From Lachnospiraceae bacterium Zagget2 (GTDB lineage Bacteria; Bacillota; Clostridia; Lachnospirales; Lachnospiraceae): a stretch of DNA of 64,000 nucleotides. Location: assembly GCA_001941045.1 (NCBI GenBank), contig MSHD01000023.1:1-64000 (forward strand), written 5' to 3'. Below, piece after piece: positions 103 through 49,814 of the stretch; position 1 is the first letter of the stretch; each line of letters starts with the position of its first letter. The notes beneath the pieces are model-generated. The model did not search any database. It was not told where the DNA came from and saw only the letters and a program-made list of their open reading frames with translations. A program made the translations under genes and the position numbers.

Positions 103-1917
103 ATGGCGATGTTCGAGTATCGTGTAAGCACCGGAGACCCGGAGCGGATGGGTGTGACGAAGGCAGGAAGAGACGTCTGTTTTACGGTAAGCGTGCAGGA
201 TGGACAGGACTGCAGCCTGATCCTCTATCAAAAGGGAACGGACGAGCCTGCAGCGGAGCTGCCATTTACGAATGAGATGCGTTTTGCAGATGTCTGCGCG
301 ATGCGACTCCACCATTTTCCCCTGCAGGATTACGAGTATAATTACCGGACAGGCAGACACATCGTACAGGATCCTTATGCGGATGAGATTCGTGGACGCG
401 GGATCTGGGGCGCGGTTCCGGATGGCCCGCATGCGCTTCGCTGCGCCGCGCGCCCGGAGCGATATCCCTGGCGGGATGACAGACCGCTGCGCCTGGCGGA
501 GGAAGACTGCGTTCTCTATGTGACGCATCCGCGCGGCTTCACGATGGACGGCTCATCGAAGGTGAAGCACCCCGGGACTTTCGCGGGCATTCGTGAGAAG
601 ATCCCCTACTTAAGAGAGCTGGGGATCACGCAGCTTGAGCTGATGCCGGTTTATGAGTTTGCAGAGACCGGAGCGATAGAGAGCGGGCGCAGACATATGC
701 CGCTGCGGAAACGAGGTGAGGCGATCAGCAATTACTGGGGCTATGGCGAGGCGTTTTTCTTTGAGCCAAAGGCGGCCTACAGCGCGTCGGAAGATCCGGT
801 ACGGGAGCTGAAAGATCTGGTTCGCGAGCTTCACCGAAACGGGATTGAGCTGATCCTGGAGTTTTCTTTTCCGGAATACACTTCTCCGGAGCTGGCGGTT
901 GACTGTATCCGCCACTGGGTGCGCGATTACCATATTGACGGCGTCCATGTGACCGGAAGCGGCGCTCCGACTACCGCGCTGGCGCTCGACCCGCTGCTGG
1001 GTGAGACCAGGATTATGAGCGATTACCTGCCGATGGAGCACATTTACGGGAGTGCTTACCGGCCGCGAAAGCGGCGGCTTCTTGAATACAACGATGATTT
1101 CCTGGGAAAGGTACGACGCTTCCTGCGCGGAGATGCGGGTGTCGTATGGCAGATGGCAGAGTGCCTCTGCCGGAATCCGGCGCAGTATAACGTTGTGAAT
1201 TACGTGGCGGGGCACAATGGCTTTACGCTGGCAGATGCGCTGCGTTACGAGCAGAAGCACAATGAGGCGAACGGAGAGGGAAATCTTGACGGAAGCGACC
1301 GGAATTACAGCTGCAATTATGGAACGGAGGGGCCATCCGACGTGCCGGAAGTGGAAGAGCTGCGTGCGAGACAGGCGAGGAACGCGCTGCTGCTGACGAT
1401 TCTGGCGCAGGGAGTCCCGGCGATTTACGGCGGCGACGAGATGGGAAATTCTCAGCAGGGAAATAACAACGTCTACTGTCAGGACAACGAGATTTCCTGG
1501 ATTCAGTGGGCAAGCGATGAGAAGGGCCTTGCGCTGCAGCGGTTTGTGAAGGAAGCGCTTGCGCTGCGCAGGGAGCATCCGGCTTTCCGGCAGAGACACA
1601 CCCGTGTAGAAGGAACGCCGGCGATCTCCTATCATGGAAGCCGGGCGTGGTATGGCGATTTTGAGAACGACAGCCGTCATATTGGCATTCTGTACGCGGG
1701 CGAGGAAGCGCTTTACGTGGCGATTAACATGCACGAGGAGGCGCTGGAGCTTGCTGTGCCGAAGGCTCCGTCAGGACAGCGATGGCAGATTATCGTGGAT
1801 ACCGGACAGGGAGAAGAGGCTTTTTCTGAGAATGGCCCCGTGCTTTCACGAAAGACGGGTAAGACCGTGGAGATCCCGCCGCGGACAATTCTGGTGATGG
1901 CAGGAAGGAACGCATGA
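103..1917 (+). CDS. GlgX/isoamylase-like GH13 family protein, probably catalytically degenerate
   Basis: Translation keeps isoamylase-type motifs (RRFLRGDAG, GDEMGNSQQGNNNVYCQDNEISW) but the GH13 catalytic motifs are altered; start at 103 or 109 after GGAGAGG. Confidence 0.8.
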   Translation: MAMFEYRVSTGDPERMGVTKAGRDVCFTVSVQDGQDCSLILYQKGTDEPAAELPFTNEMRFADVCAMRLHHFPLQDYEYNYRTGRHIVQDPYADEIRGRGIWGAVPDGPHALRCAARPERYPWRDDRPLRLAEEDCVLYVTHPRGFTMDGSSKVKHPGTFAGIREKIPYLRELGITQLELMPVYEFAETGAIESGRRHMPLRKRGEAISNYWGYGEAFFFEPKAAYSASEDPVRELKDLVRELHRNGIELILEFSFPEYTSPELAVDCIRHWVRDYHIDGVHVTGSGAPTTALALDPLLGETRIMSDYLPMEHIYGSAYRPRKRRLLEYNDDFLGKVRRFLRGDAGVVWQMAECLCRNPAQYNVVNYVAGHNGFTLADALRYEQKHNEANGEGNLDGSDRNYSCNYGTEGPSDVPEVEELRARQARNALLLTILAQGVPAIYGGDEMGNSQQGNNNVYCQDNEISWIQWASDEKGLALQRFVKEALALRREHPAFRQRHTRVEGTPAISYHGSRAWYGDFENDSRHIGILYAGEEALYVAINMHEEALELAVPKAPSGQRWQIIVDTGQGEEAFSENGPVLSRKTGKTVEIPPRTILVMAGRNA

Positions 1918-2489
1918 AGCTGATTAATATATGGAGACATTTTTACACGATCACGGAGCATCGCCTCATGGTTGCGCGGCACTGCTTCCGCGTGGGGATG
2001 TACTGGCAGGGGCTGACACACGACCTGTCCAAGTATTCACCGTCTGAGTTCTGGCAGGGCTGCCGCTACTATCAGGGCTTTTGCAGCCCGAACAATGCGG
2101 AGCGCATGGATAAGGGATATTCCATCGCCTGGATGCATCACAAGGGCAGAAATAAACATCATTATGAATACTGGACGGACTACAATGTGAAGACGCATCG
2201 CATGGAAGGCGTGAAGATGCCGCTCAGGTATGTAAATGAGATGATCATGGACCGGATCGCAGCCTCAAAGGTGTATGAGGGCGCAAAGTATACACAGCAT
2301 TCTCCCCTGGCATATTATGAAAAAGGGAAGGACAGCTACATGATTCATCCGGAAACGAGCGCTCTGCTCGAATATGTCCTGCGCATGCTGAACAAGTATG
2401 GCGAAGAGAGGACTTTCGCCTGGATGAAAAAAAATATGGTTGGGAAGAAACGCTATCCCAATATCAGGAAAAGAGGAGTGAAGAAATGA
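1914..2489 (+). CDS. DUF5662-like family protein
   Basis: Complete ORF overlapping the upstream stop; His-rich N-terminus (HDLSKYSPSEF, HHKGRNKHHYEYW) recalls the DUF5662 family. Confidence 0.65.
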   Translation: MKLINIWRHFYTITEHRLMVARHCFRVGMYWQGLTHDLSKYSPSEFWQGCRYYQGFCSPNNAERMDKGYSIAWMHHKGRNKHHYEYWTDYNVKTHRMEGVKMPLRYVNEMIMDRIAASKVYEGAKYTQHSPLAYYEKGKDSYMIHPETSALLEYVLRMLNKYGEERTFAWMKKNMVGKKRYPNIRKRGVKK

Positions 2490-2857
2490 AATACATGCGT
2501 CAGATCGCGCGTATTGCGGGATTCGCCTTTGTCGGCGAGCTGCTCAATACGCTGATTCCGCTCCCGGTGCCGGCGAGCGTATATGGCATGCTGCTGCTTC
2601 TGTTCTGCCTGTGTACGGGCATTGTAAAGCTGGAGCAGATCGAGGAGACGGCGGATTTTCTGGTGGAGATCATGCCGCTGGTGTTTGTGATGCCGGGCGT
2701 CGCCGTGATAGAGTCCCTGGGGCTTCTGGCCGACTCGCTGGTGGGGATCATTGTGATCTCGATTCTGTCGACGCTGCTGGTCTACGCGGTGACCGGCCTG
2801 ACAGCGCAGGCGCTGGTTCGCCTGCGGAGAAGAAGGGAGGAGGAGCAGCATGGATAG
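2486..2857 (+). CDS. CidA/LrgA family membrane protein
   Basis: Small hydrophobic ORF with the LIPLPVPASVYGMLLLL motif; overlaps an LrgB-like ORF. Confidence 0.85.
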   Translation: MKYMRQIARIAGFAFVGELLNTLIPLPVPASVYGMLLLLFCLCTGIVKLEQIEETADFLVEIMPLVFVMPGVAVIESLGLLADSLVGIIVISILSTLLVYAVTGLTAQALVRLRRRREEEQHG

Positions 2858-3542
2858 TTTACTGCAGGAATCCCTGTTCTTTGGCTTCTTCCTGACACTT
2901 GCCTGTTATTTTGCCTGCGTGGAGATCGCAAAGCGTTACAAAAGCCCGCTTCTGAATCCCCTGTTCTGGTCGATCGTGCTGACGATCGTAGTATTGAAGC
3001 TTCTGGGAATCAGTTACAGTACGTTTGAGTATGGGGCGAAATACCTTAATTATCTGCTGACGCCGATCACGGTCTGCCTGGCAGTGCCCCTGTACCGGCA
3101 GCTGCGGCACCTGCGGGATTACGCGGATGCGGTGATCATCAGCATTCTGTCAGGAACGCTGGCCTGCGCGGCGATGATCTTTCTGATGTCAAAGATGTTC
3201 GGCTTCGACAAGTCGATGTACGCATCCATGGCGGTGAAGTCGATCACGACCGCGATTGCGCTTGGGGTAAATGAGGAGCTGGGCGGTATTCAGGTCGTAT
3301 CGATCATGGCGATCACGATCACCGGTACAATCGGCCCGATTTTCGCAACATCCGTCTATAAGCTGCTGCACATCAAAGAACCGATTGCACAGGGCCTGGC
3401 GCTCGGGACCGGTTCCCATGCGATCGGGACAAGCCGCGCGCTGGAGCTGGGCGAGATCCAGGGGGCAATGAGCAGCCTGGCGATTGTCGTAACCGGTGTG
3501 CTTACGGTGATCATTGCACCGATTCTGTACGGTATTTATTAG
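2850..3542 (+). CDS. LrgB/CidB family membrane protein
   Basis: Hydrophobic ORF with the GTGSHAIGTSRALELGE motif typical of LrgB. Confidence 0.88.
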   Translation: MDSLLQESLFFGFFLTLACYFACVEIAKRYKSPLLNPLFWSIVLTIVVLKLLGISYSTFEYGAKYLNYLLTPITVCLAVPLYRQLRHLRDYADAVIISILSGTLACAAMIFLMSKMFGFDKSMYASMAVKSITTAIALGVNEELGGIQVVSIMAITITGTIGPIFATSVYKLLHIKEPIAQGLALGTGSHAIGTSRALELGEIQGAMSSLAIVVTGVLTVIIAPILYGIY

Positions 3543-47522: not shown

Positions 47523-47555
47523 AGACTTATATGAGTGAAAGAGAGGTCCATTCTT

Positions 47556-48692
47556 ATGAAGCAAAACAGTATGTTGGCAATGATTCTGGCCGGCGGGCGT
47601 GGTTCCCGTCTCCATGATCTTACCAATAAGGTCGCAAAACCAGCGGTCGGCTACGGTGGAAAGTACCGGATTATCGATTTTCCCTTAAGCAACTGCGCGA
47701 ACAGCGGCATTGATGTGGTCGGCATTCTGACCCAGTATGAATCTGTCCTGCTGAACAGCTATGTGTCCGGAGGCAGCAAGTGGGGACTTGACTCCCGCGA
47801 CAGCGGTGTCTTCGTCCTTCCGCCGCGTGAGAAGGCGGACTCGGAGCTGGACGTCTACCGGGGGACGGCGGACGCGATCTCGCAGAATATCGACTTTGTG
47901 GACAGCTACGACCCGGAGTACATACTGATCCTTTCCGGCGATCACATCTACAAGATGAATTATTCCAAGATGCTGAACGCCCATAAGGAAAATAACGCGG
48001 ACGCGACGATCGCGGTGCTCGAGGTTCCGATGAAGGAGGCCAGCCGTTTCGGCATCATGAATACGGATCCGGAGACCGGACGTATTGTGGAGTTTGAGGA
48101 GAAGCCGGCACAGCCGAAGAGCAATCTCGCCTCCATGGGTATCTATATCTTTACCTGGAAGCTCCTGAGAAAGATGCTCCTGGCTGATATGAAGAATGAG
48201 AATTCCAGCCACGATTTCGGCAAGGATGTTATCCCTGCCATGCTGAATGACGGAAAGAGACTGTTTGCCTATAAGTTTAAGGGCTACTGGAAGGATGTCG
48301 GAACGATCGATTCGCTCTGGGAGGCGAATATGGATCTTCTGGACAAGAAGAATGGTCTGGAGCTTGACGACCGTACCTGGACGATATACACGGAGGATGC
48401 CCCGGCGACGCCGCAGTACGTATCTTCGACAGGCAGCGTGAAGCGGGCCTATGTCACGCAGGGCTGTGTGATTGAGGGCGACGTGCGTAATTCCGTGTTG
48501 TTTACCGGCGCGGAGGTGAAGGCCGGTGCGAAGGTTGTCGACAGCGTTCTGATGTCAGGCGTCGTCGTGGAAGAGGGCGCGGTTGTACAGCGTGCGCTCG
48601 TTGCAGACGGCGTGAAGATCGGCGCGCAGGCTGTCGTGGGAGACCCGGACAGCGAGCACATCGAACTTATAGCGAAAAATGTAAAGGGGTAG
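47556..48692 (+). CDS. glgC: Glucose-1-phosphate adenylyltransferase
   Basis: [54 protein letters not shown]. Confidence 0.96.
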
Positions 48693-48698
48693 AGAATT

Positions 48699-49814
48699 AT
48701 GGTGAGAGCATTAGGAATTATCAGTTTTTCGGAGAGCAATGTCTGGGTAGAAGGAATGGAGTCTTTCCGCTCGATCGCCGCCTTCCCCTTCCTCGGCAGA
48801 TACCGTGTGGTCGATTTCCCGATCTCCAATATGTCCAACAGCGGGATTGACCGGATCCAGGTCTATATCCGCAGAAAGCCGCAGTCTCTGGTGCAGCATC
48901 TCGGCACCGGCAGACATTATAATATCAACTCCAAGAGCGGATATCTGCGCATGATGTTTGCTTCCTCCACGGAGGAGAATGACTACTACAACACCGATAT
49001 CAGAACTTACATGGAGTTCATCGATCATATCAAGAATACGTCGAACACCCATGTAGTGATTGCGCCGGGCTACATGATCTATCAGCAGGACTATGCGGCG
49101 ATGCTGAACGCGCACATCGAGTCCGGAGCGGACATCAGTGTGCTCTACCACGCGGTCGACAATGCGAAGGATGCCTATCAGAACTGCTACTGTGTGAATC
49201 TGAACCGCCAGAAAGGCGTGAAATCCTTCGAGCTGAACAGCGGCACGGCAAAGAACCGGAATATTTTCATGGACACCTATGTCATGTCGAAAGCCATGTT
49301 CCTCGACCTGCTGGACGAGGCGCAGAAGCTGTCCTCCATGTACACGCTGCGGATGATTATCAATGCGAAGTGCGACGAACTCGACATCCGCGGAGTAGCT
49401 CACAAGGGCTTCTTTGCACCGATTACGGATTTCAAGAGCTATTATGACGCGAATCTGTCGGTGAACCGGGAGAAGATTGCGGAGACTCTGTTCAAGCAGA
49501 GCTGGCCGATTTACACCAGGACGAACGATTCCTGCCCGGCGCAGTACTTCGAGTCAGCCGAGGTGAAGGGTTCCTTCATCGCCAACGGCAGCGTCGTCGA
49601 GGGTACGGTCATCGATTCCGTTGTCGGCCGTGACTGCAAGATCAAGCCGGGCGCAGTGGTCCGCAACGCGGTGCTGCTGGACAATGTTACGATCGGCGAG
49701 GGCGTCCACATCGAGGGCCAGGTCGTGGACAAGAACGCGCAGGTCATCCACATGAAGGAGATCATCGCGGATCCGGAGCATCCGGGCTATATTAAGAGAA
49801 ATGATGTAGTATAA
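48699..49814 (+). CDS. glgD: Glucose-1-phosphate adenylyltransferase regulatory subunit GlgD
   Basis: Paralog of GlgC lacking the N-terminal GGxGxRL loop; directly downstream of glgC. Confidence 0.93.
   Translation: MVRALGIISFSESNVWVEGMESFRSIAAFPFLGRYRVVDFPISNMSNSGIDRIQVYIRRKPQSLVQHLGTGRHYNINSKSGYLRMMFASSTEENDYYNTDIRTYMEFIDHIKNTSNTHVVIAPGYMIYQQDYAAMLNAHIESGADISVLYHAVDNAKDAYQNCYCVNLNRQKGVKSFELNSGTAKNRNIFMDTYVMSKAMFLDLLDEAQKLSSMYTLRMIINAKCDELDIRGVAHKGFFAPITDFKSYYDANLSVNREKIAETLFKQSWPIYTRTNDSCPAQYFESAEVKGSFIANGSVVEGTVIDSVVGRDCKIKPGAVVRNAVLLDNVTIGEGVHIEGQVVDKNAQVIHMKEIIADPEHPGYIKRNDVV

Follow-up and report, generated by a model that had tools for sequence, protein, structure and literature searches.

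A predicted non-catalytic isoamylase/GlgX-like family of Lachnospiraceae with a possible role in glycogen metabolism

The question raised by this locus is what a protein with the build of a glycogen-debranching enzyme could be doing when all of its GH13 catalytic motifs are substituted. The initial annotation had suggested that it is a selected, non-catalytic glycogen-binding or regulatory paralogue of GlgX/isoamylase. The window, that is, the whole stretch of 64,000 nucleotides that was analysed, starts with the first base of contig C23, in a genome of 3.34 Mb, and the gene upstream of the one of interest is therefore missing. The gene and its four motif sites are located as follows.

109..1917, forward strand: coding sequence of the predicted dead isoamylase/GlgX-like protein, 602 aa from the ATG at 109, with the stop codon at 1915-1917.
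853..879, forward strand: site of GH13 motif I (active: DVVFNHT), here ILEFSFPEY; Asp, Asn and His are gone, and the following loop is deleted.
937..954, forward strand: site of motif II (active: GFRFD), here DGVHVT; the nucleophile Asp is replaced by Thr at 952-954, and Arg by His.
1012..1035, forward strand: site of motif III (active: AEAWD or AEPWD), here IMSDYLPM; the acid/base Glu is replaced by Asp at 1021-1023.
1210..1230, forward strand: site of motif IV (active: HDGFTL), here GHNGFTL; the transition-state Asp is replaced by Asn at 1216-1218.

The reading frame is open from a TTG at 64, and the ATG at 103 is another possible start. The ATG at 109 is likelier than the TTG, since it is preceded by the RBS-like GGAGAGGAGG at 92-101 and since relatives of the protein start with MFEYQV. 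From there the frame runs at full length to the stop at 1917, in agreement with the intact ORF that had been claimed. Pfam recognises an alpha-amylase barrel and an isoamylase C-terminal domain, and the best NCBIfam model is GlgX (TIGR02100), with a score of 295.1 bits that lies under the equivalog cut-off of 640.9. The type I pullulanase model TIGR02104 gives 108.8 bits, mainly over the N-terminal half and under its cut-off of 504.5. The same genome encodes one other relative, an intact GlgX of 713 aa on contig C53, in which the motifs DVVFNHT, GFRFDLAS, AEAWD and HDGFT are all present.

We now turn our attention to the catalytic centre. The initial annotation had read Thr (ACC), Asp (GAT) and Asn (AAT) at the three catalytic positions, and these codons are correct. 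In an alignment with the E. coli GlgX and the genome's own GlgX, they occupy the columns of the E. coli nucleophile D336, the acid/base E371 and the transition-state residue D443, the nucleophile column being a gap in the first MAFFT alignment and Thr in the larger one. The catalytic residues have not moved to another place in the protein; the deletions fall in the loops that carry the catalytic residues. Two stretches of the genome's own GlgX are absent from the family, namely residues 285-328, which form the loop after motif I, and residues 358-371.

The same picture is obtained for the homologues. The nucleophile Asp is present in none of 94 distinct dead-type sequences, the column holding Asn in 41, Val in 13, Met in 11, Thr in 7 and others including Leu, Ile and Ser in the rest, which excludes chance or an annotation error. 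Among these sequences 25 retain the acid/base Glu and 29 the stabilising Asp, never both together, and about 17 residue types occur at the acid/base column within the dead family. Every active-type GlgX aligned has the complete Asp/Glu/Asp set, and dead and active sequences split cleanly. With the nucleophile lost, the other positions drifted and the active-site loops deleted, the protein should therefore be incapable of alpha-1,6 hydrolysis by the GH13 mechanism, and we consider it close to certain, judging from sequence, that the family is catalytically inactive.

Using homologues drawn from GTDB-type genomes and named contigs, the dead sequences were found to form one clade with a support of 100, apart from active GlgX, and the clade is recovered with 100/100 in the tree that includes an outgroup. 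Matches at E <= 1e-20 occur in 243 of 299 Lachnospiraceae genomes; leaving out 23 ambiguous ones, at least 220/299 are clear carriers. In an order-wide sample, about 131 genomes of other families gave no match to the pseudoenzyme at E <= 1e-70. At that sensitivity the matches are from Lachnospiraceae alone, and the pseudoenzyme is thus confined to this family. The dN/dS values of the window gene against close relatives are 0.09-0.13, which shows that it is held by strong purifying selection. The single dead clade, the low dN/dS and the family-only distribution together indicate one ancient loss followed by long retention. In the outgroup tree, which is without plant sequences, the dead clade is placed weakly (79/87) beside Lachnospiraceae GlgX, which is consistent, if weakly so, with an origin by an old duplication of that gene. 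The view of the protein as a selected non-catalytic paralogue is thus confirmed by the dead clade, the dN/dS of about 0.1 and the intact GlgX elsewhere in the genome, and what had been noted as one substituted protein turns out to be a family-wide clade.

One sub-branch consists of shorter dead proteins of about 560-590 aa (eleven loci) that are without the motif III region, and ten loci of this sub-branch have, immediately upstream and in the same orientation, a gene for a predicted sugar-binding ABC transporter lipoprotein. When plasmids were searched for the pseudoenzyme, the best matches were ordinary GlgX alone. In four plasmids from Deinococcus, Nostoc, Streptomyces and Runella, representing four phyla, the active glgX adjoins genes for STAS-domain/anti-sigma-factor-antagonist proteins, with such genes to its left and right in three cases; this suggests that plasmid glgX and the STAS-type genes form a mobile regulatory cassette.

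The fold of the window protein was modelled with AlphaFold2 (pLDDT 89.4, pTM 0.91), and the best Foldseek match is plant ISA1 with a TMq of 0.85, followed by the GlgX of S. venezuelae (0.83) and of E. coli (0.80) and by plant ISA2 (0.77-0.78). The model has an N-terminal beta domain, the barrel and a C-terminal beta domain, so that the GlgX/isoamylase fold is kept, as the initial annotation had maintained. Conservation is unevenly distributed over this fold. The mean majority-residue identity of the motif I-III region is 0.48 in the dead family versus 0.86 in active enzymes, and that of residues 371-409, a segment of the border lobe, is 0.78 versus 0.89. The following sites are relevant here.

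1114..1470, forward strand: equivalents of maize ISA1 border-lobe residues, with R504 at 1114-1116, N561 at 1261-1263, W578 at 1312-1314 (Cys here) and N628 at 1462-1464.
1648..1650, forward strand: Trp codon in the C-terminal domain.

In maize ISA1, residues R504, N561, W578 and N628 lie in the border lobe, in or beside the surface glucan site SBS2, and are required for activity, W578 being in contact with the glucan (PMC12510319). The corresponding mutants su1-NC (R504C), su1-SW (N561S), su1-Ref (W578R) and su1-Bn2 (N628K) have lost their activity, and yet starch is still shaped (PMC12510319). The equivalent positions were set via an alignment of rice ISA1, for which a single offset of 11 fits R, N, W and N. 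The equivalents of R504, N561 and N628 are invariant in 94/94 dead homologues, and that of W578 is Trp in 75/94; in the window protein this SBS2 contact residue is the Cys. The Trp of the C-terminal domain is found in all 93 dead-family members that have a residue there, compared to 8/32 active GlgX sequences.

It is mainly because of these conserved border-lobe/SBS2 residues and the C-terminal-domain Trp that we propose retained glucan binding. Our preferred reading is that the family may have kept the ability to bind alpha-glucan, with a role in glycogen metabolism, the protein itself being non-hydrolytic; we assign to it a probability of roughly 0.58. According to this proposal, a GH13_11 (isoamylase/GlgX) pseudoenzyme would have become fixed early in Lachnospiraceae. 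It would hold branched alpha-glucan via the lobe that resembles the ISA1 border lobe/SBS2 and via the family-specific Trp, and it may act on glycogen by itself or together with another protein, for instance GlgB, GlgA or GlgP. Once bound, it would alter the access of synthesis and breakdown enzymes to the chains, in the manner of plant ISA2 and the dead ISA1 variants on starch. Glycogen binding, as put forward in the initial annotation, is plausible. It is important to point out that the conserved lobe residues may instead serve folding, and that the pseudoenzyme gene does not lie in a cluster of glycogen genes, which speaks against a glycogen role. The glycogen synthase gene glgA was found in all carrier genomes tested and in 77/80 Lachnospiraceae overall, and since it is nearly universal in the family, a presence/absence test of glgA against the pseudoenzyme has little power. 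Some glgA-positive Lachnospiraceae are without the pseudoenzyme, which is thus not essential for glycogen. The narrower idea of a glycogen-architecture factor, that is, a dead isoamylase that evolved apart from ISA2 and, without an active isoamylase as partner, sets how glycogen is branched or turned over in Lachnospiraceae, many of which seem to have no canonical debrancher, is a tentative one, with the odds somewhat against it.

Several other explanations were considered. The loss of catalytic residues could by itself hint at a gene in decay or at an error of sequencing or assembly, but this option was rejected and has a negligible probability, because the ORFs are intact at full length in independent assemblies, the dN/dS is about 0.1, and the fold and the invariant residues are conserved across a deep clade. 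Strong purifying selection and wide retention would also be expected if the barrel had been rebuilt for a new catalysis that is independent of the GH13 triad. Residues specific to the family (Lys222, in 96/96 aligned sequences, Gln435 and Trp515) and the lack of a canonical debranching enzyme in many carriers fit such a scenario as well. However, residues vary greatly at the former active-site columns, the loops of the pocket are missing and no new invariant polar cluster takes the place of the triad, which makes a new activity very improbable. A further option is that the protein forms a hetero-oligomer with active GlgX and tunes its activity, like ISA2 with ISA1 or GlgD with GlgC. The window genome does contain such a pair, 84 of the 99 GlgX-carrying genomes are clear pseudoenzyme carriers, and ISA2, itself of GH13_11 and noncatalytic, provides the precedent by increasing the activity of ISA1 (PMC12892837). 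The 99 genomes, out of 299 Lachnospiraceae, are those with an active-type GlgX as called by bit score against the genome's own GlgX, with thresholds chosen in this analysis. Against this stands the fact that about 136 of 220 clear carriers (about 62%), among them complete genomes and at least four assembled as a single contig, have no active GlgX match, and 15 GlgX-less carriers are also without a type I pullulanase over the cut-off. GlgX is thus not an obligatory partner, the pseudoenzyme gene is passed on largely irrespective of an active GlgX in the genome, and the co-occurrence data rule out this pairing as a general rule; the tuning of GlgX is accordingly an unlikely explanation, and from the genomes compared a universal pairing like that of ISA1 with ISA2 or GlgC with GlgD appears unlikely too. 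A facultative partnership may exist in species with both proteins. The parallel to GlgD and GlgC, which are indeed both encoded in the window (GlgC at 47535-48692 and GlgD at 48699-49814), had been part of the initial annotation; it holds insofar as a noncatalytic paralogue occurs beside the active enzyme in the genome, whereas a strict partnership, such as that of GlgD with GlgC, does not carry over to the GlgX-less majority of carriers.

The remaining candidate for a partner is the gene immediately downstream.

1914..2489, forward strand: DUF5662 (PF18907) gene, whose ATG overlaps the pseudoenzyme stop by 4 bases.

Here the proposal is that the DUF5662 protein is the partner of the pseudoenzyme and that the job of the pair is not centred on glycogen. 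A DUF5662 gene follows downstream on the same strand in 43/68 homologous loci, often with an overlap of 4-23 bases, and this adjacency is seen across differing neighbourhoods, with dgt/dnaG/rpoD around some of the loci and gltX, a uvrD-like helicase gene, luxS and trpS around others. The conserved His, Asp and Glu residues of DUF5662, metal-binding in look, could also be taken to favour the proposal. However, ancestral gene order can survive by descent, and DUF5662 occurs at about the same frequency whether a genome lacks the pseudoenzyme (29/38) or has it (32/39). The two are therefore not interdependent, and these presence/absence data give no support to DUF5662 as a dependent partner, so that we regard the proposal as improbable, somewhat more so than the tuning of GlgX. 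The invariant residues of the pseudoenzyme-adjacent DUF5662 proteins, for example H36-D37, H75-H76, H82-H83 and E85, form a putative metal-binding set. A model of DUF5662 (pLDDT 92) has no significant fold match in the PDB, and no mention of the domain was found in the literature searched. Between DUF5662 and dgt/dnaG/rpoD there is also an lrgA/lrgB-type pair at 2486-2857 and 2850-3542, which the window shares with a few relatives and which is missing in most relatives of the same gene order.

Retained glucan binding without cutting is thus the reading that we favour. The family also raises the question of how glycogen is debranched in the carriers without GlgX. The route is puzzling: 27 of 36 such genomes have no strong match to type I pullulanase either, the other nine having one over the cut-off, and GH133 was found in 0/36 genomes tested, which comprised carriers with and without GlgX. 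In 15 of these 27, a search for type I pullulanase with a permissive threshold returned weak, branching-enzyme-like and pseudoenzyme matches only. Five genomes have other GH13 proteins that match the maltodextrin glucosidase and cyclomaltodextrinase models. Nine near-complete glgA-positive genomes, among others, were observed to have no GlgX, GH133 or type I pullulanase over the cut-off, and several of these debrancher-less genomes encode GH13 proteins, about 440 and 690 aa long, with matches to the cyclomaltodextrinase/maltodextrin glucosidase models.

To our knowledge, noncatalytic isoamylases are otherwise from plants and algae alone, where they shape starch. The present family would be a second case, a bacterial one, widespread within a family that is dominant in the gut. 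No bacterial noncatalytic isoamylase was found in the literature searched, which consisted mostly of papers available without subscription and thus leaves the novelty unproven, and the parts seen of a review from 2024 on prokaryotic alpha-glucan enzymes mention none. In a review of gut genomes, Blautia obeum is credited with two homologues of glgX and no remark is made on this; one of them may be the pseudoenzyme. Calling glgX by homology may count the pseudoenzyme as a debrancher, and the capacity of Lachnospiraceae for glycogen breakdown may therefore be overstated. The family also offers an inexpensive way to find out if a storage polymer can be shaped by a protein that binds glucan but does not cut it.

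Finally, the family can be compared with the known systems. Among the bacterial ones, it shares with GlgX/TreX (TIGR02100, GH13_11) full-length homology, the fold and the conserved GNNNxYCQDN and NEANGExNxDG segments, but it has no catalytic triad, its loops are deleted, and its TIGR02100 score is under the cut-off. GlgD is likewise a noncatalytic paralogue in the glycogen metabolism of Firmicutes and is encoded in the window, but its fold is unrelated and it works with GlgC, whereas the pseudoenzyme often has no active GlgX at hand. The maize ISA1 missense variants show that an isoamylase free of catalysis still shapes alpha-glucan (PMC12510319); unlike those single-residue mutants, the family keeps three of the four mutated residues invariant and has lost the catalytic centre instead. 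The closest precedent is plant ISA2, a noncatalytic isoamylase that is a subunit of the ISA1/ISA2 complex (PMC12510319, PMC12892837), and which has the isoamylase fold, GH13 catalytic residues substituted clade-wide and a long-retained noncatalytic form (PMC12510319), as is the case here. The bacterial family differs from it in that most of its members have no active isoamylase in the genome, in that the active-site loops are deleted, whereas in ISA2 the channel is blocked by a loop, and in that the SBS2/border-lobe equivalents lost in ISA2 are kept (with Cys for W in the window protein). The score against ISA1 is 476 bits and that against ISA2 264 bits, and membership of the ISA2 lineage was rejected, as both the sequence profile and the fold are nearer to ISA1 and GlgX.
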